From positions 948,550 to 1,012,549 of the forward strand of contig NZ_SSYA01000001.1 of assembly GCF_004917065.1 (NCBI RefSeq): a stretch of DNA of 64,000 bases, written 5' to 3'. The notes below the pieces were generated by a model, which saw nothing but the letters and a program-made list of their open reading frames with translations, did not search any database and was not told where the DNA came from. This document shows positions 170 through 13,598 of this stretch, piece by piece. A program made the position numbers and the translations under genes. Position 1 is the first letter of the stretch. Each line of letters begins with the position of its first letter. The DNA comes from Geomonas ferrireducens. GTDB taxonomy: Bacteria; Desulfobacterota; Desulfuromonadia; Geobacterales; Geobacteraceae.

Positions 170-1489
170 TTATCGCTCCTTCATGCAGGCTTGCCAGCCG
201 CCGTGCATAAAGGTCGCTTTATCGCACCAGACAGCGACCGGGTAGTAATCGCCCATCGCGTCCTGGGAGCATGGCCCCTTTTCATCCAGAACGCTTCGAT
301 CAGGAAGGCTCTTGAAATCCAAATCGAACGCGCAGTTAGCCCATGCCTCCTTGACCGCATAGGGGAAATAGTCCGATACCAGCGTGTGGCGCAAAACCAG
401 GAACTTGGGATACCGCTCGTCACCATACGGCAGCCAGTTTATGTTGGGACTCAACCAATCGGGGCGCTGCCGATCGTCCGATATGACGATCGTGTAATAG
501 CCCCCTTCGAGACGTGTCGTCAGATCGGTTGCGCAACCAATGAGCGAAAGCGGCACGGCGAAGTCCTGCTCGCACAGGGCCCAGTAGCGCATGTCGACGC
601 TCCGGAAGCCCCGTGACGGCTCCCAGATCGGTGCACCATTGAACGTGTCGGGAACCCCAGGTGCCTTGCCGCGTATGACGATGATCCGCCCCGGTTGGTA
701 ATCGTCCCCCGGCCACATCATCATGTATTTGCCGTCCGGATTGGGCCACAGGATCGACGGCGGGTTGGCCGGTGAAGCAAACCAGAGCCGATCGGTGGCC
801 GGCGTGCCTTCAATGACCTTCGGGTCGAAGTTCAGCGGGAAGAGCAGTTGGGCCAGGGCACTGATCTCGCCCCACTTGTTGACTGTCGGGCAGGTGTCCA
901 GCTGCTTGCCGGCCCCGGTTCCGTCCGTCAGCGTTATGGTGGGAAGGGGCACCCCGCCCATCAGGGCTTTGCCGGTTAAGGACGGATCTGCGTTCGGTAC
1001 GTACATGCGCAGGACCACCCAAACAAGGTCCGAGGAAACCTTGATGGTATTCGCCGAGCTGGAGTCGGAGCGCGAGATCACGACCGTATAGGTGCCGCTG
1101 CGACCGCCCGGCGGGACGAACGGGTTGCTGCTGCCCGGATCGGGGGCGATCTGGGCATCGTACAGATGCTGCTCTACGAGATGAAATCCCTGGTTGGTGT
1201 TGTGTTCAGCGTCGTAACCGAGAGTCTCGTAAGCAGTGATGGCAAAATAACGGATTTTGGGATAGGTGCCCTTGATGGTCATCTTTTCGTACCGCGTGTC
1301 GAAGGGCATGATCCAGTAACGGGCAGCACCGTCGGGGCCCTGCACGTTGCCGGAGCCTTCGGGCGAGAATACGAGCGGCCACCCACATCCTCGAGCATTG
1401 AACTCCGCGGCGCGTGCGTCACCGGGATGCATCAGAAACGCGAGGGCTATGAAGCAGCCCAACATAGCGATCCAGGTAGATACTTTCAT
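170..1489 (-). CDS. Secreted protein of unknown function
   Basis: The product has 439 residues. It has a clear signal peptide (MKVSTWIAML, hydrophobic core, AGDARA-like site near residue 27) and a good GGAGG site just before the ATG. Two stretches with similar wording, RYFAITAYE followed by YTVVISRSD and later YYTIVISDD, suggest two related beta-rich domains of about 150-200 residues. The wording resembles the RYF-containing core of the four paralogues nearby, but the overall sequence is clearly different. There are several Cys in the C-terminal third, compatible with disulfides outside the cytoplasm. It sits 69 bases after the 1559-3004 gene and is probably cotranscribed. No function is recognised. 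Confidence 0.75.
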   Translation of the reverse strand: MKVSTWIAMLGCFIALAFLMHPGDARAAEFNARGCGWPLVFSPEGSGNVQGPDGAARYWIMPFDTRYEKMTIKGTYPKIRYFAITAYETLGYDAEHNTNQGFHLVEQHLYDAQIAPDPGSSNPFVPPGGRSGTYTVVISRSDSSSANTIKVSSDLVWVVLRMYVPNADPSLTGKALMGGVPLPTITLTDGTGAGKQLDTCPTVNKWGEISALAQLLFPLNFDPKVIEGTPATDRLWFASPANPPSILWPNPDGKYMMMWPGDDYQPGRIIVIRGKAPGVPDTFNGAPIWEPSRGFRSVDMRYWALCEQDFAVPLSLIGCATDLTTRLEGGYYTIVISDDRQRPDWLSPNINWLPYGDERYPKFLVLRHTLVSDYFPYAVKEAWANCAFDLDFKSLPDRSVLDEKGPCSQDAMGDYYPVAVWCDKATFMHGGWQACMKER

Positions 1490-1558: not shown

Positions 1559-3004
1559 TTACGGACGCGGCGAAAACTTGATGATGCGGTCGTAAAGCAT
1601 CTCCTGCGTGGCGGCTCCCACCTTGGTCGCAGGTTCAAGGTACATGCGGAAGTACACCCCCAGGATCGTGTTTTCATCGAGTTTCACGCGCGCACAGGGG
1701 GCGGACAACGGCACGCAACCGGCTTCGTTGCCGCAGTTGCGCGATGCCTTGTACACGTACATCAGATGCGCATCGGGATCCCCGGCGGGGAGGTAGCTGT
1801 CGGCCGAGCCTACCGGCAGATCGTCGTCGAAAAATCCGCCTAAAAACGCATTCCATTTCTGATGCGGGCCGTCACCTTCCATGTATCCGGTCGCGTAAAA
1901 ATTGACGTTCATGTACGTCGTTTTCCGGGTGGCTACGTGATTGGCGCCATAAATCACGAGATACTCGTCGTCGGCCAGCGTGAGAACGTCATTGAGATTG
2001 GATTGCGGCATCATCCAACCAGCATCCAGAACAAATCCATCCCGGGTGCCGCCATCCGCCCATGTTTTGCGTTGCAGGTTGTCATAATCCTCGTAGCAGG
2101 CTACCGCGGAGAGAAACTCGGTTGCATACATGCCGGGATTGGCGGCGATGACGCCCGCGCGGAGCTCCGCCAGCTTGTTCATCAGGTACATCTCGCTTTC
2201 TCCCGTTCCGCGGACACGCAGCGGGGGCATCGGGAAGGGTTTGGCGGTTGCCGACGCGCCTGGCGTCACCCGGAAGAGATGGAGGTTCACCGGCGAGCCC
2301 TCGATGTAACGCTTGCCGGCCGCCGGATCTTCAAACCTCGCCGTGCGCAGCGTGATCTGGAAGTCATCGGCGGTGTCGCCGTGCCCGAGCTTCAGCATCG
2401 AGGCGGGGAGCACGAGGGTATTGAAGATCGCCTCCGGGTAGCCGGCGCGCCTGAGCGCCGCACGAATGGCGGCATCGGTACCCTGGTCCGGGGTCAGAAT
2501 CAGCACAAAAGGAGTGTTGAAAGGGGTAGGTCCGGCGGTTTTGATGGTGGCGTTATTGACAGCGTCTCCCACGGTGCCGAAGATGTCCGTTTTTTTCAGT
2601 CCGCCATCCTTGTCGGGGTAGAACCTGCTGTAGATATGCGCGTAGAAGGCGAAGTATTTTGCCGGTGGCGGGGTCTTTCCGACCAGCACAATCGCTTCGT
2701 CAGGCCTGATTTTGAATTTTTGCGTCAGCACCGGCCCCTCGCCCGGTTTCGCTGCCTCTTTCGGGACGCTTGGTATGAGATAGAGACCGGAGTTCGCCAA
2801 AATGGCGTCCGGGAGGTTGCCGGCGCAAAATTCCCCCAGCGGGTTAAAGACCGTCGCAACGCCGGGGGTCACCGCAAAGCCATTTTGTTTGAGCGTTTCT
2901 TCGAAGGTAACCAGGGCGCGCTCCGGTGCCTCTTTCGACAATGCACAGGGCGCCGGCAGCAACAAAGCTGCCACAATCAAGGATAAGAATATTTTCCCTT
3001 TCAT
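1559..3004 (-). CDS. Secreted protein, paralogue A of the TPPP/YF family
   Basis: The product has 481 residues, with a signal peptide (MKGKIFLSLI, hydrophobic core, Cys20, mature part near KEAPERA). A GGAAGGAG site precedes the ATG. The conserved landmarks of the family, in order, are: LRPDEAxVLxGxTPPP with YFAF (about 101-120), GDAVNNATIKT, LTPDQGTDA, PLRVRGTGESE, DDEYLVIYGANH-ATRKTTYMN, a Cys pair near NCGNEAGC, and a C-terminal end YDRIIKFSPRP. The same landmarks occur in the products at 8522, 9970 and 11768. I recognise no characterised family and no catalytic motif. It follows the racemase-like gene by about 100 bases in the operon. Confidence 0.8.
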   Translation of the reverse strand: MKGKIFLSLIVAALLLPAPCALSKEAPERALVTFEETLKQNGFAVTPGVATVFNPLGEFCAGNLPDAILANSGLYLIPSVPKEAAKPGEGPVLTQKFKIRPDEAIVLVGKTPPPAKYFAFYAHIYSRFYPDKDGGLKKTDIFGTVGDAVNNATIKTAGPTPFNTPFVLILTPDQGTDAAIRAALRRAGYPEAIFNTLVLPASMLKLGHGDTADDFQITLRTARFEDPAAGKRYIEGSPVNLHLFRVTPGASATAKPFPMPPLRVRGTGESEMYLMNKLAELRAGVIAANPGMYATEFLSAVACYEDYDNLQRKTWADGGTRDGFVLDAGWMMPQSNLNDVLTLADDEYLVIYGANHVATRKTTYMNVNFYATGYMEGDGPHQKWNAFLGGFFDDDLPVGSADSYLPAGDPDAHLMYVYKASRNCGNEAGCVPLSAPCARVKLDENTILGVYFRMYLEPATKVGAATQEMLYDRIIKFSPRP

Positions 3005-3105: not shown

Positions 3106-3963
3106 CTATTCACCATTCAGCGAATATTCGACCGCGGCCTCCGAATGTATTTGCGTCGTGTCGAAAACCGGTATGGAGACATCCTCCTGTTTGATGAGCA
3201 ACGGAATCTCCGTGCAGCCTAAAACGACCCCTTCCGCACCTTCTTCCTTCCGGAGGCGATCGATGATTTTCTTGAATCCCTCCCTGGATTCCCGTTGCAC
3301 CTTATTGGCGCACAGCTCGTCAAAAATCACGGCGTTGATGTAATCCCGCTCTTTCTTGCTGGGTATGACGACCTTGATCCCGTACTTCGCGAGACGATCT
3401 CGATAAAAGGGCTGTTCCATCGTGTACGTTGTGCCGAGTAGGGCGACGGTACGCACCCCTTTTTTGGCGACCGCTTTCCCCGTTGCGTCGGCGATATGGA
3501 GCACGGGCAGTCCGACTTGCTGTTCGACGGTGCCCGCAAGCGAGTTAAGCGTGTTGGAGGCGATGACGATGAAATCCGCGCCGCCTCGTTTCAGCCTCTG
3601 AGCGGCATCGACGATGGTTTTCGTCATCAGGGTCCAGTCGCCTTTATCGGCTAGTTTTTCCTGCTTGGAAAATTCACCGAACTCGATGGAGTACATCAGT
3701 AACTGCGCGGAACTCACCCCACCCAAGCGGTCGCGGACCTGTTCGTTCATGATGCGATAGTATTCTATCGATGACGCCCAACTGACTCCTCCTATGATGC
3801 CGATGGTTTTGATGGGACGTTTTTCCGAAGCGGTTGCAACGGGTGTATTTTGTTTTTCGCTTCCGTTTCTCAGCACATCCTGCGCGTAAGCTGCAGAAAA
3901 TCCGCTGACAATCATCATCAGAAGAACCAGGAAAGAGCAACAGCGCGTCAAGGTGATTTTCAT
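3106..3963 (-). CDS. Exported aspartate/glutamate racemase-like protein
   Basis: The product has 285 residues, counting from the ATG at 3963, which has GGAGG upstream. An upstream in-frame ATG at 3996 lacks a site and would put charged residues before the signal peptide. Residues 1-27 form a signal peptide (AAYA before Gln). The rest is the Asp/Glu racemase fold: KTIGIIGGVSW near residue 52, and the second catalytic cysteine in GCTEIP (Cys250). The first catalytic position, normally Cys in CNT, is Ser136 in ASNT. YgeA-type L-Asp/Glu racemases also have a non-Cys residue (Thr) here, so activity is possible but asymmetric. Export of such an enzyme is unusual, and its substrate would be extracytoplasmic. 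Confidence 0.82.
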   Translation of the reverse strand: MKITLTRCCSFLVLLMMIVSGFSAAYAQDVLRNGSEKQNTPVATASEKRPIKTIGIIGGVSWASSIEYYRIMNEQVRDRLGGVSSAQLLMYSIEFGEFSKQEKLADKGDWTLMTKTIVDAAQRLKRGGADFIVIASNTLNSLAGTVEQQVGLPVLHIADATGKAVAKKGVRTVALLGTTYTMEQPFYRDRLAKYGIKVVIPSKKERDYINAVIFDELCANKVQRESREGFKKIIDRLRKEEGAEGVVLGCTEIPLLIKQEDVSIPVFDTTQIHSEAAVEYSLNGE

Positions 3964-4042: not shown

Positions 4043-5728
4043 TCACTTCAGATAAAGCGGCATCAGCGTGAACTTACCGTCCAGGCTGTCGGGCACATCA
4101 CGCAAGGGTTGCCAGGCCCACGGCGATTCGCTCCAGATGAACGGCTTCCCCTGCACGTGGGGGGTACCGTAGAGCATCCAAAAACCGGTGCTCGTGGCTG
4201 AAGCATCGAGGACGCCGGCCAACGCCATAAAAGAACGCACCATTTCCGTCGATCCCACCTTGGCGTCGAGCGCCCCGTCAGGAATCTGCTTGGGATAGTC
4301 GGTCACCCCATACCCCAGATCCCAGCGCCCGAAAACGGAGAGGGGGTTGTTCGGATCGGTATAGGTGATGACGTTTCGTGCCGTCTGCAGATTCGTCACC
4401 CCGGGCAACCATTTGTTGAACTGCAAACGCCGCTCGGGGCGATTGTCGGTGGATTGGAGATCCTCCCGCACCTGCAGCGAGGCGGGGTAGTTGATCCCCA
4501 TCAGGTAGTCGGGGGTGACCATCTCCGCGTCGTAATCGGTCGAGCAAGCGCCGCCGTCCGTCGAGCGGCTCGTGACCTCGTAGGGGCCGCCGGTCGAGCG
4601 GTAGTACACGAAGCAGCGGTAGGACATCTCCACCAGCCCGGTCGCGCCGGTGTTGGCGTCCGCCAGCATGTAACCGTTCAGGTAGCTGCCGGTGTTGTCG
4701 AGGGAGATGGCGTCGAAGAACGCGGTGATGGAATCCGAAAACTGCTCCGCAAGGGCCGCCCGCCAGAAGATCCAGAGCCCCAAGGGCTTGACCTGGCTGT
4801 GGGACATCCGATGGGTTGTCTCGTTGAACATGAGCCCCTTGTTGTTATAGCCGAAATCGGTGGTCGAGCCGATCAGGCCGGGGGTCGCCGCGTTGAAGGT
4901 GATCATGTCGTTGTTGACGACGAGGGTCTGCGCCATCGACTGGGAAAGGAACCCCGACCAGGTGTTGTGGGTGAGGATGGTCTCGCCCCCCGCGCGTTTC
5001 AGGAAGGCGGAACATCGGTCGGGGAAAGCGCCCGTTCTCGTCCCACCTGGGGGGAGATCGAGGAAAGAGATCACGTCCATCAGGTCGCAGAAGGCGTTCA
5101 CGAAGTAGACGTCCATGAAGGTGGGGCCGGCGGTCTCATAGCCTAGGAGAAGCTCCGACGCCTGAAAGTAGTTGCCGTCGGGGAGCCAGTTGCCGGAAAA
5201 GTCGAGGCCGGCCGGCTCCTCGACAGTGGCGCCGTGGTAAATGCCGAGCATCCGGAAGAGAAGCCTCTTCAGCCGGTGGGCCGTCTCCGCCTCGGTCGCC
5301 GGGTCTTCGAGGTACCGCAAGAAGGCGGCGTAGTTGGCGTTCAATAGATCGCCAGCCTTGTCCAATTCCGCCTGCGCGGGACCGTGCTGCGTCGGAAACG
5401 TGTGGTCAGGGTTGATCAGGTAGGCGTTGTCCCAGCAGTTGTCCCGGGCCGACACGATCATCGCCCCCTGCAACTTCCCCTGGATGAATCCGGCCCGGTA
5501 CTCCGCCTTCAGGTCGTTCGCGTCCCTCGACACCACCGTGAGGTTGACGATGTTGTTGATGGTCCGGATCGCGCCCGAAGCGCTCGCGTCCAGCGCGTAG
5601 GTCGTGAGCGCGGGCGCTCTCCCCGGCGCCAGGTATGACTTGCCGGGGGTGAATTCCCCGGCGGCTGCCGTTGTGGAGACACCAAGGACAGCGGTCCATA
5701 GCAGAAGGATGTACCCTCCGACTTTCAT
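4043..5728 (-). CDS. Secreted phospholipase B-like (PLBD/laminin-A type) Ntn hydrolase
   Basis: The product has 561 residues from the ATG at 5728 (AGGAGG upstream), with a signal peptide ending near TAAA-GEF. The segment around Cys239-Ser240 (DRCSAF) followed by THNTW (253-257) matches the autocleavage/nucleophile region of eukaryotic phospholipase B-like proteins, which read CSALI then AHNTW. The C-terminal KPFIWSESPWAW also matches the PPFQWSTSPF end of that family. Members are Ntn hydrolases in which the Cys becomes the N-terminal nucleophile after self-cleavage, acting on lipid or amide bonds. Length (about 550-590) fits. The neighbouring Zn-PLC-like protein suggests joint attack on phospholipids. 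Family assignment is by remembered motifs, not a search. Confidence 0.72.
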   Translation of the reverse strand: MKVGGYILLLWTAVLGVSTTAAAGEFTPGKSYLAPGRAPALTTYALDASASGAIRTINNIVNLTVVSRDANDLKAEYRAGFIQGKLQGAMIVSARDNCWDNAYLINPDHTFPTQHGPAQAELDKAGDLLNANYAAFLRYLEDPATEAETAHRLKRLLFRMLGIYHGATVEEPAGLDFSGNWLPDGNYFQASELLLGYETAGPTFMDVYFVNAFCDLMDVISFLDLPPGGTRTGAFPDRCSAFLKRAGGETILTHNTWSGFLSQSMAQTLVVNNDMITFNAATPGLIGSTTDFGYNNKGLMFNETTHRMSHSQVKPLGLWIFWRAALAEQFSDSITAFFDAISLDNTGSYLNGYMLADANTGATGLVEMSYRCFVYYRSTGGPYEVTSRSTDGGACSTDYDAEMVTPDYLMGINYPASLQVREDLQSTDNRPERRLQFNKWLPGVTNLQTARNVITYTDPNNPLSVFGRWDLGYGVTDYPKQIPDGALDAKVGSTEMVRSFMALAGVLDASATSTGFWMLYGTPHVQGKPFIWSESPWAWQPLRDVPDSLDGKFTLMPLYLK

Positions 5729-5801
5729 GATGGTTCCTCCTTTCCGACCTCCGTTTTCAGGTCCGTCTTTTGACATCCGCTGCCGCGCTCGAAGACCCTA
5801 C

Positions 5802-7322
5802 CTACTTGATGAGCGCTTCCAGAGTTGCTATCGAGTTACCGATCAGCGGGTCTATCAGCGCCTGCGATGGACAGGTAATGATCCAGTCCGGTGTAAAACC
5901 CGATCCTTGCGTGTCGGGTGTGCCTCTGAGAGCGCATCCGTCTGTTTTGTCCAGTATCGAGTTGAGTTGATCCAAGGCGCTTTGATATTCAGCCGTCCTG
6001 CGCGCCGGCTTCGTGGACTCTTCCGCCGCCTTGATGCTTGCGATGACCGCATCAAACTTGTTCAGGAGGGCTTTTCTCCTGTTCTCCTCTACCTTGGTGT
6101 TGGCCCCATCCATGTCGCTTGTCGCCACCCGGACCGGATCCGCGACGATGCTCTGGATAATCTGAATCTGTTGTATTGCAGCAGCAGGTGTGGGCGGCGG
6201 CGGATTACCTGCACCGTAGCCGACCGTTGTCATGTAAATGTCCCAGTTGCCGTTCCTGGAGTCCATGTAAACGATGCGCCCGCCGGAACTTCTTGGAAAC
6301 TGTTGATCTCCGACAACATTTGTCACTCTGAACTCAGCGGGATAGAGCGTGTTGTAGAGGTAAATGTTCCAGTGGTAAGTGTCATATGTCCACCCTTGAT
6401 AAACGATGTAATAAACCCCGCTGTAGAGCTCGGAGATATGCGGCGATTGATGAGGCACATGGTCGGTCCAGTACACTGGGGCTGTCGTATTCCAGGTGGC
6501 ACCGGTTGCCACATCTTTCATGTAAACATCACGGTCATTGCCCCACATGAAGTCGTTAGGAGGAGACCACCGATAACTATTCAACACATCCCAGACGATA
6601 TGACTGCCGCTGATTGCTGGAAGCTGCGGATTTCGACTCCCCTTTTGACATCCAAGATCGGGATCGCAGGAGTATTGCCATATCTTGGTTTCGCTTCCAC
6701 CGGCGAGGTCAACATAGTACACGTTGCCATCCTTGATGTAGGCTATGCGGTTGCCGGAGATCGCCGGAGATGTATTCGCCCCTGATGTTGTCACCCGTGT
6801 TTCAGTGTTCGCCACGAGATCATAGAGGTAGATGTCCCAGTTGCCGTTCCTATTGTCCTGCCACACTATTTTGGTACCGTCTATTGCAGGAAATTCCTGA
6901 CTAGCCGCACTCGTGGTTATCTGGGTCTCCGTTTTTGTTGTCAGGTCATACAGGTAGATGTCCCAGTTGCCGTTCCTGTCATCCTGGTAAACGATTTTAT
7001 TGCCGGAAATTCTCGGACTGGTTTGATTACCCGTATTCGTGGTTATGCGATTTTCCGGATAACCGTATTTCATCAGGTAGATGTCCCAATTGCCGTTTCT
7101 ATTGTCCTGATACACTATGAGGTCACCGGAGATATCAGGATTCTCCTGGGATGCAGGGTCTGAGGTTAATTGCTCCTCCATGAACAAGATTTCGGCCATT
7201 GCAGGTCCGGATGAAAATGCACCGAGTCCAAGGAGAATAACGGCAGTCCTTGCCAACATGATCTTCAAGGAGCGCATGTTAAGTGCCTGCTTCTCCATTT
7301 TGCCGCCTCTGATTGTTTTCAT
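5802..7322 (-). CDS. Secreted TolB/WD40-like beta-propeller protein
   Basis: The product has 506 residues with an N-terminal export signal (hydrophobic 25-40, GPAMAEI). A GGGGAG site precedes the ATG at 7322; an in-frame ATG eight codons in is a weaker alternative. The body holds repeats of the form ISGxxIVYQDxRNGNWDIYLYD, at least four of them with the NGNWDIYL core, typical of TolB/DPP-IV style propeller blades. The last about 125 residues, after a proline run (PPPPTP), form a helical domain with three Cys. Propellers of this type bind proteins or glycans, and no catalytic residues were seen. It lies between the PLC-like and PLB-like genes in the operon. Confidence 0.82.
   Translation of the reverse strand: MKTIRGGKMEKQALNMRSLKIMLARTAVILLGLGAFSSGPAMAEILFMEEQLTSDPASQENPDISGDLIVYQDNRNGNWDIYLMKYGYPENRITTNTGNQTSPRISGNKIVYQDDRNGNWDIYLYDLTTKTETQITTSAASQEFPAIDGTKIVWQDNRNGNWDIYLYDLVANTETRVTTSGANTSPAISGNRIAYIKDGNVYYVDLAGGSETKIWQYSCDPDLGCQKGSRNPQLPAISGSHIVWDVLNSYRWSPPNDFMWGNDRDVYMKDVATGATWNTTAPVYWTDHVPHQSPHISELYSGVYYIVYQGWTYDTYHWNIYLYNTLYPAEFRVTNVVGDQQFPRSSGGRIVYMDSRNGNWDIYMTTVGYGAGNPPPPTPAAAIQQIQIIQSIVADPVRVATSDMDGANTKVEENRRKALLNKFDAVIASIKAAEESTKPARRTAEYQSALDQLNSILDKTDGCALRGTPDTQGSGFTPDWIITCPSQALIDPLIGNSIATLEALIK
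6233..7106 (-). repeat. Dispersed DNA repeats encoding the NGNWDIYL blade core
   Basis: Near-identical stretches of about 23-30 bases (core ATGTCCCAGTTGCCGTTCCT on the plus strand) occur near 6235, 6830, 6958 and 7081 within the propeller gene. They encode the same RNGNWDIY segment with very similar codons, which suggests recent internal blade duplication or gene conversion. Confidence 0.75.
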
Positions 7323-7415: not shown

Positions 7416-8411
7416 TTATTTCTTCTGTCGCCCCCCTTGGGGTAAAGATAGGGTAATCCCGTGATCCTTCAGGCTCTTGCCCACGTACAGGACGGCAGCC
7501 TCGATCTCTGCCTTGTAGTCGTCGCAGATCCCCATGGCGCTGAACATCGCCGCTTTGAGGATGTCGACGGGGGCGGAGAACCCGAGCTCGGAGAGCACCC
7601 CGGTAAGCTGCACGGCGAGCAGTTGCACCGCAACGGGTTCGGGCTGGGAGATGGCCTGTCCCAGGAAGATCATGTCCTTTCGGTGCCCTTTCTCGGCAGC
7701 GGTCAACGCAGCAGCTGCGGCCAAGGAGTCGCCGCCGAAGCAGTACGCCGCATAATCCGCTACAAAGGCCTTCACGAACAGGGGCTGGAACCCCTTCGTG
7801 TCGCTCCGGGCCGCTGCGGCCAAGCGCCGGCCGAGCAGAGGGGCCATTTCCTTCTCGATCCTTATGTCTATCGCTTCTTCCACGATCACGTGGGCGGTCA
7901 GGAGCGCCATGTCGGGGTCCATGCCGAGACCGGCGAATGCCTCGCCGAACGTCTGCTCCGGGTCGGCCGGGTTTACCGGAGCGTTCAGCAGTAGCCTCGC
8001 CTTCACGATGATGTACCCGTCGTTCTCCCCGCATGTCTGGCAGGAGGTATGGGCGACGTGATCGCCCCCCCATTGCTGGTTGTGACTGACGAACCCGAAA
8101 GCAAGGGCCTCTTCGGTGTTTGTCTCCGCTGCGTCCCAGACCTTCAGGAAGGTGTCGGCGTAAGTTCCCTGGGTCTGATCCCCTATCCAACCGGGGCACA
8201 AGTCCGGGTCGAACACGAAGTTGTACATGTCCGGCGCGACGCTCCCCCACATCTCTTTCAGGTCGTCATGCCCCGCGTGGCTACCCAGCTGGTCGACAAT
8301 GTAGGCATGGGTCGCCTGGTTCCAAGAAAACGCCACGGTGGGCATCATGAGGAACAGGCAGCACAACAATCCCAATGCCATGAGATGTTTCTTAGCACCC
8401 TTTCTTTTCAT
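7416..8411 (-). CDS. Secreted zinc-dependent phospholipase C-like protein
   Basis: The product has 331 residues. The signal peptide is predicted to end at AFS, leaving Trp30 as the first mature residue, as in bacterial zinc phospholipases C, where the N-terminal Trp ligates zinc. Further candidate ligands appear in order: His35 (ATHAY), Asp61 (APDM), His110 (GFVSH), Asp117-His118 and His121 (GGDHVAH), and a later HVIVE motif that gives the HxxxE pair. The mature length of about 300 residues is close to the Clostridium alpha-toxin catalytic domain, but no C2-like domain is seen. The predicted activity is hydrolysis of phospholipid head groups outside the cell. The assignment rests on metal-ligand order. 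Confidence 0.68.
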   Translation of the reverse strand: MKRKGAKKHLMALGLLCCLFLMMPTVAFSWNQATHAYIVDQLGSHAGHDDLKEMWGSVAPDMYNFVFDPDLCPGWIGDQTQGTYADTFLKVWDAAETNTEEALAFGFVSHNQQWGGDHVAHTSCQTCGENDGYIIVKARLLLNAPVNPADPEQTFGEAFAGLGMDPDMALLTAHVIVEEAIDIRIEKEMAPLLGRRLAAAARSDTKGFQPLFVKAFVADYAAYCFGGDSLAAAAALTAAEKGHRKDMIFLGQAISQPEPVAVQLLAVQLTGVLSELGFSAPVDILKAAMFSAMGICDDYKAEIEAAVLYVGKSLKDHGITLSLPQGGRQKK

Positions 8412-8521: not shown

Positions 8522-9940
8522 CTATTTCTTGAAGTGGATCGCACGGTCCCACAAAATTTCGAACCAGTACGGCCCGACACCCGTCTCAGGTTCGACATAG
8601 GCACGAAAACCCAGGAACAGATCATCATCCAGGCTACCCCTTGGGCAACAATCCCCAAACGGGCAGTTTCCTACCGGAATCTGCTTGACCTCCAAGCAGT
8701 CCGTCGCAGGAAGACCACCACAATCGCGTGCCACTTTGAAGGCATAGAGTTGTTTGGACATCGCCTGATATTTGCCGAGGTCGTAACGATCAACAGTTCC
8801 GATGATTTCTCGGCTGTTTTTCCCTGCAAGGCCCAATTCCATGGCTGCATGGTACAGGGTGAAATTGGAGTAGGTCGCCTTTCCGGTAGCTTCATGATTC
8901 ACCCCGAATACCACCAGGAAATCTTCAGGGTTACTGCCAAGCTTGAAGTCGGCCGTTTTCAAGTACACGGTGTCCCTGCACTCGCCTATGAGGTTCGTCC
9001 CTCTTTGGAAACCGTCCAGCCATTCAAGCAGCCAAATACCGCTTTGGAGTTTCTCCGCCTGATAACCGGGGTTAGCCGTAACGATTTCCGACTCCAGACG
9101 GTCAAGGGCAGGCATAAGATCGGTTTCCGTTTTCCCTGTCCCCCGCACCAGCATTTGCGGTGTGGGGTAAGGGTCCAGCTTTGCGGGCTTCTCCGGATAG
9201 GTCACGTACAACACGCTGGCCCACTGGCTTGAGGTATCCATGTAGTTGTTGAGGTCGTCCTGGTTGGCAGGCAGATACATCCTTTCGACGAAAATGAGAG
9301 TGTCGGCCTTTTCATCCTTACCCAACTTCACGACGGACGAGGGAACCACCATGGTGTTCATGATCGATTGCGGAAACCCCGCTCGCATCGCCGCATTCAG
9401 AACGCTCGCGTTGGTGCCCTGGTCCGCGGTCATGACGATGATTACGTCCTTGTCGAAAGGATGTTTCTTATCAATCGTGTTGATTCGGGAGTGGTTTATG
9501 GTATCGCCGATACTTGAGAAAATTTGCTTTCTATCTTTGCCATCTCCGTTGTAACGACTGTACACAAAGCCCGTATAGCTGAAGTAAGCAACGGGCGGAG
9601 GCGTCTTTCCGATAAATATCACCGCATCATAAGGCTCAAGCTGCATTTCCCGCCCTACCCGCACCCCCTCATACGGCTCGCTTATCACCTGGTACGGCGC
9701 CGCGGCATTGTTGCCGAACGCCGTGTCGGTGAGTCCGTTGCATACCCAACAAGCGAGGTTAACGGGTCCGAAGGCATCTTCCCAGTGGGTCACTTTAAAT
9801 CCTTGCTGCTCCAATTGCTTCTGGAACACGACGACTCTTTTGTCCGTCACATGGAGTTTCCCATCTCCCTGAGCAAAGGCGGGATTTGCAGCCACCAATC
9901 CTGTAAGCAGTATTGTGAACAGCATTATTTTCGCCTTCAT
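8522..9940 (-). CDS. Secreted protein, paralogue B of the TPPP/YF family
   Basis: The product has 472 residues from the ATG at 9940, which is preceded by AGGAGA; the in-frame ATG at 9973 is upstream of the signal peptide and unlikely. The signal peptide ends NPAFA before Gln. It has the family landmarks: EPYDAVIFIGKTPPP with YFSY (113-122), GDTINHSRINT, TADQGTNASV, MLVRGTGKTE, FLVVFGVNHEATGKATYSN, a CGG-x-C cluster, YVEPETGVGPYWFEILWDRAIHF at the end. It ends 110 bases before the PLC-like gene. Function is unknown. Confidence 0.8.
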   Translation of the reverse strand: MKAKIMLFTILLTGLVAANPAFAQGDGKLHVTDKRVVVFQKQLEQQGFKVTHWEDAFGPVNLACWVCNGLTDTAFGNNAAAPYQVISEPYEGVRVGREMQLEPYDAVIFIGKTPPPVAYFSYTGFVYSRYNGDGKDRKQIFSSIGDTINHSRINTIDKKHPFDKDVIIVMTADQGTNASVLNAAMRAGFPQSIMNTMVVPSSVVKLGKDEKADTLIFVERMYLPANQDDLNNYMDTSSQWASVLYVTYPEKPAKLDPYPTPQMLVRGTGKTETDLMPALDRLESEIVTANPGYQAEKLQSGIWLLEWLDGFQRGTNLIGECRDTVYLKTADFKLGSNPEDFLVVFGVNHEATGKATYSNFTLYHAAMELGLAGKNSREIIGTVDRYDLGKYQAMSKQLYAFKVARDCGGLPATDCLEVKQIPVGNCPFGDCCPRGSLDDDLFLGFRAYVEPETGVGPYWFEILWDRAIHFKK

Positions 9941-9969: not shown

Positions 9970-11619
9970 TCAAAGCGCCGGACGCATCCCCTTTGTGCCA
10001 TCGAACTGGATGGAAAACGGGGCGAGAACCTTCAACGGGTCCGGTCCGCGCGTTGAACCGGGGGTCATGTAGTTCCGCTGCAAGATTTTGATGGTGTCCC
10101 CGGCAGGAACGAGCTGCCTCGGGACTTCCTCACAGAAAGGATAGAGTCCGCTGCAGTCCCGCGCGTAATAGTACACGTAGAATTTTTTGTACAGCTGCGG
10201 ATCTGACAGTGCGCCCTTAAACCTCTCCGCACTCTCTTCGAGAACCGGGTCGTCACTGTTCAGGACGCCGACGAGCTGCGGGAACCAGTTGACCGCAAGG
10301 CTCGTGTAGGTGGCATTGCCGGTTTTGGTGCCCAGCGTCCCGACCACTGCGATCACCTGCCCCTCATCGAGCCGGTAGGTTCCGGCGCTGATCTGGGGCT
10401 CGTCATCCATGTTGTCGCCCAGGCAGTTCATCGGACCGCGCGGCAGCGTGATGTTTTCCGCCGGGTCCGTGGGGGGAGGACCGTCATACCCCAAACAGTG
10501 CTGGCCGACGAGGTCGACCCAGCCGGTAAGGCTCTTGAACTGGGCTGCCGGCGCGTCCGGCCGCTGACCGGCGCCGTCCTGGCGCCAGTAGCTCTTGACC
10601 GCCGCCACGAGGCTATTGAGATCGCCCTGCAAGGCCGACTCGTCGAAGTTCCAGCTCTTCGTCTCGTATTGCTGAATCTTGTAAGGCTTCTGAGCCTGGC
10701 CGCCGTTCGGGGCCCGGACCCGGAGTATCGTCAGTGGCAGCTCTTCGCGCCACTTCTCACCCAGAACAGTGTCGTTCGGCATCGAATAGCGAATGTACGT
10801 GATGAAATCGTCCGCCTCCGGGCCATATCCCAAACGAAGCAATTGCGGTTTGGCCGCGTTGTCCGGGTCAACGAAGCCTGCCGGCTCCGTGAAAACCAAG
10901 CTCTTGTCGACCCCCGCTTTCTCGAGCGCCCCGGTCATCGCCGTGGCCATCTGCTCATCGGCCGTGATCACGAAATAACGGGGCTCTCCCCAGACCCCGG
11001 CACTCTGGTTGTCGATCATGACGTTGTTGATGGTGTCGCCGAAGCTCGCGATCATCATCATGCGGGTGGGATCTGGCGACGCACCGAAGATGATGTACAG
11101 CAGATCCAGTGTTGAGGGTGTATCCAGCTTCGCATAGACCGGGTCACTCTTGTTGAGCTCGGTCTGCCGGGTAAAGACGTTCGTCCCCATGCCGAAGTAG
11201 CGAGCCGGCGGGGGCATCTGGGCAATAATCACCAAAGCTTCCCTTTCACCCAGCCGGTAGTTTGCGGCCATACCCCTTTGCCCTTGAACGAGCGCATGCT
11301 GCAGGCTCCGGTCGACGAATTCGTCCTTCCACGGGGGGACGACCGCGAGCACGTACGGAGCGGTCGGATTATTGCCGTAGCAGAAGCCGACCGACTGCAG
11401 CGGCAACTTGCAGTCATCGGCTCCCCACAGCCTCCAGTACCCCCGCGCCACCTCATACCCCTCCTGCAAGACCGCGCCCTGGAAACCCTGCACCGTCATC
11501 TCAAGGGATGCCGGCAACCGGTTCGCCTTGCTGAGCGGGTCCGTCGCAGCGCCTTGGCTGCCGGAGACGGTAATGAGCAGCGTGAAAATACATAGCCAAA
11601 ACAATTTCGATGCGCTCAT
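9970..11619 (-). CDS. Secreted protein, paralogue C of the TPPP/YF family (divergent)
   Basis: The product has 549 residues and starts at ATG 11619 with AGGAGG upstream. The signal peptide is residues 1-24 (SGSQGA). It is the most divergent and longest of the four paralogues: the TPPP box is MPPPARYFGMG (about 135), followed by GDTINNVMIDNQ, VITADEQMATAM, LRVRAPNGG instead of VRGTGxTE, and VIAVVGTLGTKTGNATYTS where the others have GVNHxATGKATY. The C-terminal CSGLYPFC and PFSIQFDGTKG replace the usual ends. It starts 149 bases after the 11768 gene and ends 29 bases before the 9940 start, so cotranscription is likely. Confidence 0.78.
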   Translation of the reverse strand: MSASKLFWLCIFTLLITVSGSQGAATDPLSKANRLPASLEMTVQGFQGAVLQEGYEVARGYWRLWGADDCKLPLQSVGFCYGNNPTAPYVLAVVPPWKDEFVDRSLQHALVQGQRGMAANYRLGEREALVIIAQMPPPARYFGMGTNVFTRQTELNKSDPVYAKLDTPSTLDLLYIIFGASPDPTRMMMIASFGDTINNVMIDNQSAGVWGEPRYFVITADEQMATAMTGALEKAGVDKSLVFTEPAGFVDPDNAAKPQLLRLGYGPEADDFITYIRYSMPNDTVLGEKWREELPLTILRVRAPNGGQAQKPYKIQQYETKSWNFDESALQGDLNSLVAAVKSYWRQDGAGQRPDAPAAQFKSLTGWVDLVGQHCLGYDGPPPTDPAENITLPRGPMNCLGDNMDDEPQISAGTYRLDEGQVIAVVGTLGTKTGNATYTSLAVNWFPQLVGVLNSDDPVLEESAERFKGALSDPQLYKKFYVYYYARDCSGLYPFCEEVPRQLVPAGDTIKILQRNYMTPGSTRGPDPLKVLAPFSIQFDGTKGMRPAL

Positions 11620-13424: not shown

Positions 13425-13473
13425 AAAAAAAGGCCGAGCGTGCTAGGGGGAAATTTCCCTTGGCAGCTCGGCC
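13425..13473 (-). terminator. Riboswitch expression platform: intrinsic terminator overlapping aptamer
   Basis: On the minus strand GGCCGAGC (13466-13473) pairs with GCTCGGCC (13432-13439), with an inner GGG/CCC extension, followed directly by seven T. The 5' arm is the same sequence that closes the aptamer. Aptamer folding and terminator folding are therefore mutually exclusive, so ligand binding should permit read-through into the 13273 gene. Confidence 0.85.
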
Positions 13474-13535
13474 ATCTTCGAACGAAGATCCGCCGCTTTC
13501 CGTCCCCTCCTCGCGAAGGGGTTGGCCTTTCAGGA
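13460..13535 (-). promoter_or_regulatory. GEMM-I cyclic dinucleotide riboswitch aptamer
   Basis: Read on the minus strand, the leader shows AAAGGCCAACC, then a 7-bp stem CCCCTTC/GGAGGGG closed by a GCGA (GNRA) tetraloop, then GGACGGAAAGC, then GGATCTTC-loop-GAAGATGGCC, and finally GGCCGAGCTGCC. This is the order and spacing of the GEMM-I aptamer: P2 with docking tetraloop, the (G)GGACG-x-AAAGC linker, the P3 receptor stem, and the closing 3' strand. The base before GGCCAACC is A, as I remember for the GEMM-Ib (3',3'-cGAMP) class common in Geobacter, where c-di-GMP switches have G. The class is recognised from memory; ligand choice is inference. Confidence 0.8.
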
Positions 13536-13562
13536 TGAAGTTATTTTTTGGTATTTTCCCCT

Positions 13563-13598
13563 GGCCGTCCCGTGTAAGGGCGGCCAGGGTTTGCTTAA
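13563..13598 (-). other. GC-rich hairpin just upstream of the riboswitch
   Basis: A hairpin of the form CCCTGGCC-G-CCC / GGG-A-CGGCCAGGG lies directly 5' of the aptamer on the minus strand. It has no T tract on that strand and only a weak TTTGCTT on the plus strand. It could insulate the riboswitch transcript or stabilise its 5' end. No function can be assigned. Confidence 0.45.

Follow-up and report, generated by a model that had tools for sequence, protein, structure and literature searches.

A GEMM-I aptamer precedes a run of exported-protein genes

The window, a stretch of 64,000 nt from Geomonas ferrireducens, carries on its minus strand a GEMM-I (c-di-GMP-I) aptamer and, 3' of it, about ten successive genes in the same orientation, nine of them inside the window and the tenth leaving it. 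The aptamer and the genes are listed below in the direction of transcription; signal-like N-termini were judged by eye, and identities are to the first protein.

13459-13536, minus strand: GEMM-I (c-di-GMP-I) aptamer, RF01051
11768-13273, minus strand: first gene, 501-aa exported paralog (ORF and start; no Pfam or NCBIfam match; AlphaFold pLDDT 90.7)
9970-11619, minus strand: exported paralog, 549 aa (28% identity)
8522-9940, minus strand: exported paralog, 472 aa (34% identity)
7416-8411, minus strand: exported protein, 331 aa, resembling a zinc phospholipase C by eye only (L032 and L033 have relatives)
5802-7322, minus strand: beta-propeller repeat protein (TIGR04275 and PD40)
4043-5776, minus strand: phospholipase-B-like protein (PF04916, E 2.3e-10)
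3106-3963, minus strand: Asp/Glu racemase, N-terminus signal-like by eye (PF01177, TIGR00035)
1559-3004, minus strand: exported paralog, 481 aa (45% identity)
170-1489, minus strand: exported protein, 439 aa (ORF; no Pfam match)
from about 143 and out of the window, minus strand: 241-aa gene (ORF, in L027)

A cmscan search of the whole window returned the RF01051 aptamer at 13536-13459 on the minus strand (54.8 bits, E 5.8e-8, against a gathering cut-off of 35 bits) as the sole Rfam match at or above the gathering score, and the match is complete, covering positions 1-87 of the 87 in the model. Read from 5' to 3', the strand consists of GGCCAACC, a 7-bp stem with a GCGA loop, GGACGGAAAGC, a second stem, GGCCGAGCTGCC, and GCTCGGCC followed by T7. 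The 121-nt strand has a minimum free energy of -49.8 kcal/mol compared with a shuffle mean of -38.8 kcal/mol (sd 3.8; z -2.9), and 2 of 200 shuffles folded equally well. The aptamer is identical at 78/78 positions in Geomonas edaphica (L028) and G. propionica (L029), whereas the sequence upstream of it (14000-13537) agrees in alignment at 86.8% and 63.4%, respectively. The Geomonas riboswitch is a genuine GEMM-I; its class is already known, and there is no new riboswitch mechanism here. An earlier note on this DNA had proposed GEMM-I membership, the named aptamer elements in this order and a place in front of a series of genes for exported proteins, and the covariance search, the letters and fold of the strand, and the gene map agree with it on all of these. 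The plus strand just upstream of the aptamer also contains a GC-rich hairpin of 12 bp (13559-13589), which has a short T tail and may be a terminator serving the opposite strand.

The same note described the genes as encoding phospholipase-like proteins. This description fits the gene at 4043-5776, which matches Phospholip_B (PF04916) at 40.2 bits against a cut-off of 27, but is too wide for the run, since this is one of nine in-window genes, all of them compared with Pfam, and the four paralogs have no Pfam match. The 331-aa protein (7416-8411) gave no Pfam, NCBIfam or PDB-sequence match, and its assignment as a zinc phospholipase C, made by eye, was not retained; the AlphaFold model, built from three sequences, was too poor to use (pLDDT 47). 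Our searches of the open-licence literature turned up no account of these genes as the regulon of a riboswitch.

The binding pocket carries the c-di-GMP contact set

To read the ligand pocket, we placed four bases of the aptamer in the numbering of published structures.

13526, minus strand: G at the selectivity base, Vc2 position 20 (Rfam alignment, anchored by published contact lists)
13528, minus strand: A used in the earlier note, equivalent to Vc2 A18 and 4YAZ A12, two bases 5' of the selectivity position
13499, minus strand: pocket base A47, within GACGGAAAGC (Rfam alignment, published contacts)
13463, minus strand: pocket base C92 (base-paired when the terminator folds)

In the Rfam alignment, G13526 is the unpaired base immediately 5' of two pairs that we take to be C21-G46 and C22-G45 of the Vc2 structure. 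Alignment and published contacts together identify the pocket as G20, A47 and C92, which are the c-di-GMP contacts of Vc2 (PMC4744006). For the Geobacter cGAMP structure 4YAZ, the listed contacts include G8, A11, A12, U13, A14 and C15 (PMC7288161), and the cGAMP-type aptamers of the genome read GAYAATAC at this contact region (GATAAGAC in L009); the selectivity base therefore lies immediately 5' of C15. The pocket letters suggest that the ligand is most likely c-di-GMP.

The earlier note had instead arrived at cGAMP from the A before GGCCAACC. That A, at 13528, is the equivalent of Vc2 A18 and is an A in cGAMP-type and c-di-GMP-type aptamers alike, and the base at position 20, which is A in GEMM-Ib (cGAMP) switches, is G at 13526. 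A cGAMP-selective GEMM-Ib ON switch would fit the GEMM-Ib-like scaffold (C21-G46, GCGA loop, GACGGAAAGC and an overlapping terminator), the ten such A20 switches in the genome, and the presence of one GGDEF protein with a Ser at the motif (L163), a residue that we take to be a signature of cGAMP makers. However, position 20 argues against it: an A20G change in the Gmet_0970 switch, on a Geobacter scaffold, moved selectivity from cGAMP to c-di-GMP, and the A20G reporter was c-di-GMP selective by gel shift (PMC6456294). We rejected cGAMP as the ligand on the G at position 20, and consider a cGAMP-selective switch very improbable.

A switch of low discrimination, answering both c-di-GMP and cGAMP, is a second alternative. 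A response to both nucleotides has been reported for one Geobacter switch (PMC6456294), and position 20 has been described as a selectivity factor and not as a hard filter (PMC9262584); these two statements, together with the much weaker c-di-GMP binding of Vc1, which has the same three pocket bases as Vc2 (PMC4744006), weigh against the c-di-GMP reading. On the other side, G20 is kept in 6/6 related leaders and the published A20G variant is selective (PMC6456294), and we regard a dual response as unlikely.

The third alternative is the orphan variant class c-di-GMP-I-GGC (RF03167), which would have another ligand. RF03167 gives the best score for two related leaders (66.0 bits for L135 and 61.7 bits for L136) and scores 56.6 bits in the window. 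The family consensus has G47, however, and the name GGC, in our own reading of that consensus, stands for G20, G47 and C92, whereas the window, L135 and L136 all have A47. With G47 and at least 59 bits taken as the mark of the class, the window falls short on both counts. Furthermore, since three ordinary G20/C46 aptamers of the genome also exceed the RF03167 cut-off, RF03167 scores alone do not separate pocket types, and since L135 and L136 carry A47, their RF03167 label reflects the overall score only. The c-di-GMP-I-GGC class was rejected on position 47, and we see hardly any chance that the switch belongs to it.

The aptamer shares its 3' strand with a terminator

Two further features complete the riboswitch; the refined coordinates are 13536-13459 for the aptamer and 13473-13425 for the terminator.

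13425-13473, minus strand: terminator, hairpin 13473-13432 and U7 tail 13431-13425 (MFE folds; overlap in six leaders)
13459-13473, minus strand: strand common to aptamer and terminator, the switch (Rfam alignment and folds)

As the earlier note had claimed, the 3' strand of the aptamer (13473-13459) is, in the predicted fold, also the 5' arm of the U7-tailed terminator; ligand binding should therefore block termination, making the riboswitch an ON switch. C92 is captured by the predicted terminator fold, as in the pilM riboswitch, an ON switch whose terminator captures the ligand-pairing C75 (PMC9262584). The ON logic of the earlier note thus agrees with what the predicted, pilM-like overlap implies, and the direction of the switch is most likely transcriptional ON. 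The full strand folds at -49.8 kcal/mol versus -36.8 kcal/mol with the 3' arm of the terminator blocked, a difference of 13 kcal/mol in favour of the terminator fold, and switching must therefore be kinetic; in folds of the growing chain, the terminator appears only once its 3' arm is being made. The terminator is absent from the output of a simple terminator scan, which allows only short loops; its hairpin contains a bulge as well as an inner hairpin.

We aligned six leaders (the window, L028, L029, L135, L136 and L142), and G20, C21-G46, A47, C92 and the overlapping terminator are present in 6/6. By eye, a paired change can be read inside the shared strand, CUGCC/GGCAG in L135 versus CUACC/GGUAG in L136. 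Among the 19 aptamer pairs, three fail in one or two of the six rows. Among the 15 terminator pairs, taken in the window's register, three form in only three of the six rows, one in four and two in five, and the three that form in half of the rows weigh against our best explanation. The weak P1 helix (3-4 bp, at some chain lengths only), the 13 kcal/mol advantage of the terminator fold and the result of a promoter scan, which found no sigma-70-like promoter ahead of the riboswitch, also count against it.

A proposed c-di-GMP ON switch

Taken together, we propose a c-di-GMP-sensing GEMM-I riboswitch that acts as a transcriptional ON switch, with a probability of about 0.8. What the sequence itself shows is the aptamer with its pocket letters, the overlapping terminator with its conservation and the gene order; from these we infer the ligand, the switching direction and the co-transcription of the cluster. 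Without ligand, the aptamer 3' strand including C92 would pair with the downstream GCTCGGCC arm to form the terminator, and RNA polymerase would stop about 150 nt before the first gene. With c-di-GMP bound via G20, A47 and C92, the aptamer would retain its 3' strand, no terminator would form, and about ten exported-protein genes would be transcribed.

The riboswitch could also be real but control only the first one or two genes, the others having promoters of their own. Some of the gaps exceed 100 nt (for example, 148 nt between 11768 and 11619), and in L136 the riboswitch is separated from the first family gene by two others, of 1165 and 213 aa. All genes of the run nevertheless lie on one strand with short gaps, and terminator-like sites are without clear excess (19 versus 14.3 in shuffles, sd 4.1; both strands); we consider such partial control a serious possibility, although on the unlikely side.

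The proposed c-di-GMP ON switch combines features of three known systems. With the Vc2 type of RF01051 it shares the complete covariance match and G20, A47 and C92, but the RF01051 consensus has G21-C46 where the window has C21-G46, with a transcriptional terminator platform. With the cGAMP-responsive Geobacter GEMM-Ib switches (pilM and pgcA type) it shares the C21-G46 scaffold and the capture of the ligand-pairing C by the terminator, but those have A20 and the window has G20. The engineered Gmet_0970 A20G switch (PMC6456294) likewise has G20 on the Geobacter scaffold, so that the window's RNA would be its natural counterpart, a likeness that we draw at G20 and the scaffold and not over the full sequence. 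With the ligand call corrected, the exported-protein cluster should sit on the c-di-GMP side and not on the cGAMP side.

Fold of the exported paralogs

Four of the cluster genes are paralogs of no known Pfam family, with 45, 34 and 28% identity to the first protein. None of 24 family members had a Pfam match (0/24), and the paralogs gave no NCBIfam match. When profiles of the paralogs were searched against PDB sequences, only two matches came back, with E about 0.3. Comparison of the model of the first protein with known structures retrieved 6ans (Z 15.1, 4.5 Å over 258 aligned residues), VPA0106 (3u07; Z 11.3, 4.6 Å, 257 residues) and VPA0735 (3vb9; Z 10.6, 4.8 Å, 270 residues), the next unrelated structures having Z of 6.4 and below. 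The predicted fold of the paralogs resembles that of these three proteins, at 9-13% sequence identity. We know of no function for the paralogs or for VPA0106, VPA0735 or 6ans. DUF1254/DUF1214 is presumably the label of the VPA0735 fold; the two names were not found together in the literature searched, and for the paralogs the label is unsupported by any Pfam match among the 24 members.

Spread of the family and of its riboswitch

Relatives of the first protein were found in 13 of 141 genomes of the order, its own genome included, and in 3 of 19 Geomonas genomes; the G. edaphica counterpart is 98% identical. Seven clusters have several family genes and at least 0.8 kb of upstream sequence, and GEMM-I leads five of them (the window, L028, L029, L135 and L136), all with G20 and the same terminator design. 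In the two others, G078:C189 (L030/L140) and G094:C216 (L031/L139), the contig starts 0.83 and 1.03 kb upstream, so a switch further up is possible. Gene order within the clusters varies between species; in L135, for instance, phospholipase-B-like and racemase genes precede the first family gene. A single distant family gene (L142) is also led by GEMM-I, and no GEMM-I was found near four other lone or distant homologs (G033, G125, G133 and G044:C133, the last with 1.5 kb of upstream sequence). Thus GEMM-I leads 6 of the 12 family places with upstream sequence; the places at G043, G066, G044:C50 and G094:C6 are cut by contig ends.

A wider search for relatives of the first protein gave 29 loci. 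In a scan of 17 of these (L028-L042, L052 and L053, leaving out L043-L051 and L054-L056), GEMM-I was found in four, L028, L029, L033 and L053; L033 lies on the same contig as L136, L053 on that of L142, and L032 on that of L135. Outside the order, relatives of the first protein occur in genomes labelled Methanosaeta, Bipolaricaulis, Chloroflexi, Streptomyces and Firmicutes. The paralog family is present without GEMM-I at L035, L037, L038, L040 and L041, in genomes labelled Bipolaricaulis, Methanosaeta, Acetothermia, Desulfobulbaceae and Ardenticatenia, and at L040 a family gene lies near a gene that by eye resembles the one at 170-1489. The proposed switch would tie an uncharacterised exported family with relatives from archaea to Firmicutes to cyclic-dinucleotide control in Geobacterales.

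GEMM-I switches and GGDEF proteins in the genome and the order

The genome itself contains 15 GEMM-I aptamers, of which, as read from the sequences, ten have A20 (L005-L013 and L015) and five have G20 (L001-L004 and L014). Tail folds were made for 13 of the 15, L003 and L009 having no T-run in range. C92 pairs downstream in all 13, and 11 show the overlapping terminator design, L001 and L002 having a separate U-tailed hairpin.

Across the 141 genomes of the order, we counted exact patterns with reversed-pattern controls. A20 on the C21-G46 scaffold occurs in 121 genomes (control: one match, in G125), G20 on the same scaffold in 41 (control 0) and G20 with G21-C46 in 44 (control 0), both G20 lists including chance matches without a stem. 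The rest of the aptamer was present in 21 of 30 fetched G20/C21-G46 loci, and 17 of these 21 have five or more consecutive T within 70 nt; many of the first genes at the G20/C21-G46 loci look exported by eye.

There are 27 GGDEF-domain matches in the genome. At the substrate motif, 20 have Asp (two of these being pieces of one frame), one has Ser and six are unreadable, and the number of matches with Asp weighs for the c-di-GMP reading. The Ser-for-Asp in GHxxGD, the only one among the 21 readable matches, is in L163 (G000:C2:36748-37221), which through the signature mentioned above is a candidate cGAMP cyclase. The window has a GGDEF domain as well, in an 819-aa frame (L153; 53716-54186, minus strand).

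In a wider and tentative picture, possible but short of probable, Geobacterales would have two opposed sets of GEMM-I ON switches on one scaffold, with A20 for one exported set turned on by cGAMP and G20 for another turned on by c-di-GMP, the window's cluster being a patchy accessory secretome usually accompanied by a G20 switch. Since c-di-GMP is reported to inhibit cGAMP synthesis in G. sulfurreducens (PMC6456294), the A20 and G20 sets would be reciprocally expressed.

Side observations concern three aptamer loci of the genome. At L016 (G000:C1:922912-923267), 271 nt separate two near-identical G20 aptamers, and exported repeat-like proteins are encoded after them. L017 (G000:C1:1775500-1786000) has an A20 aptamer, a 144-aa ORF that by eye is hemerythrin-like, a G20 aptamer and a 2876-aa exported ORF, the aptamers being at G000:C1:1776041 and 1776796; two signals may act here in series on one locus. 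At L018 (G000:C2:173681-175696), a GGDEF-domain protein of 591 aa (L162) is encoded downstream of an A20 (cGAMP-type) aptamer, an arrangement through which cGAMP might be linked to the synthesis of c-di-GMP.
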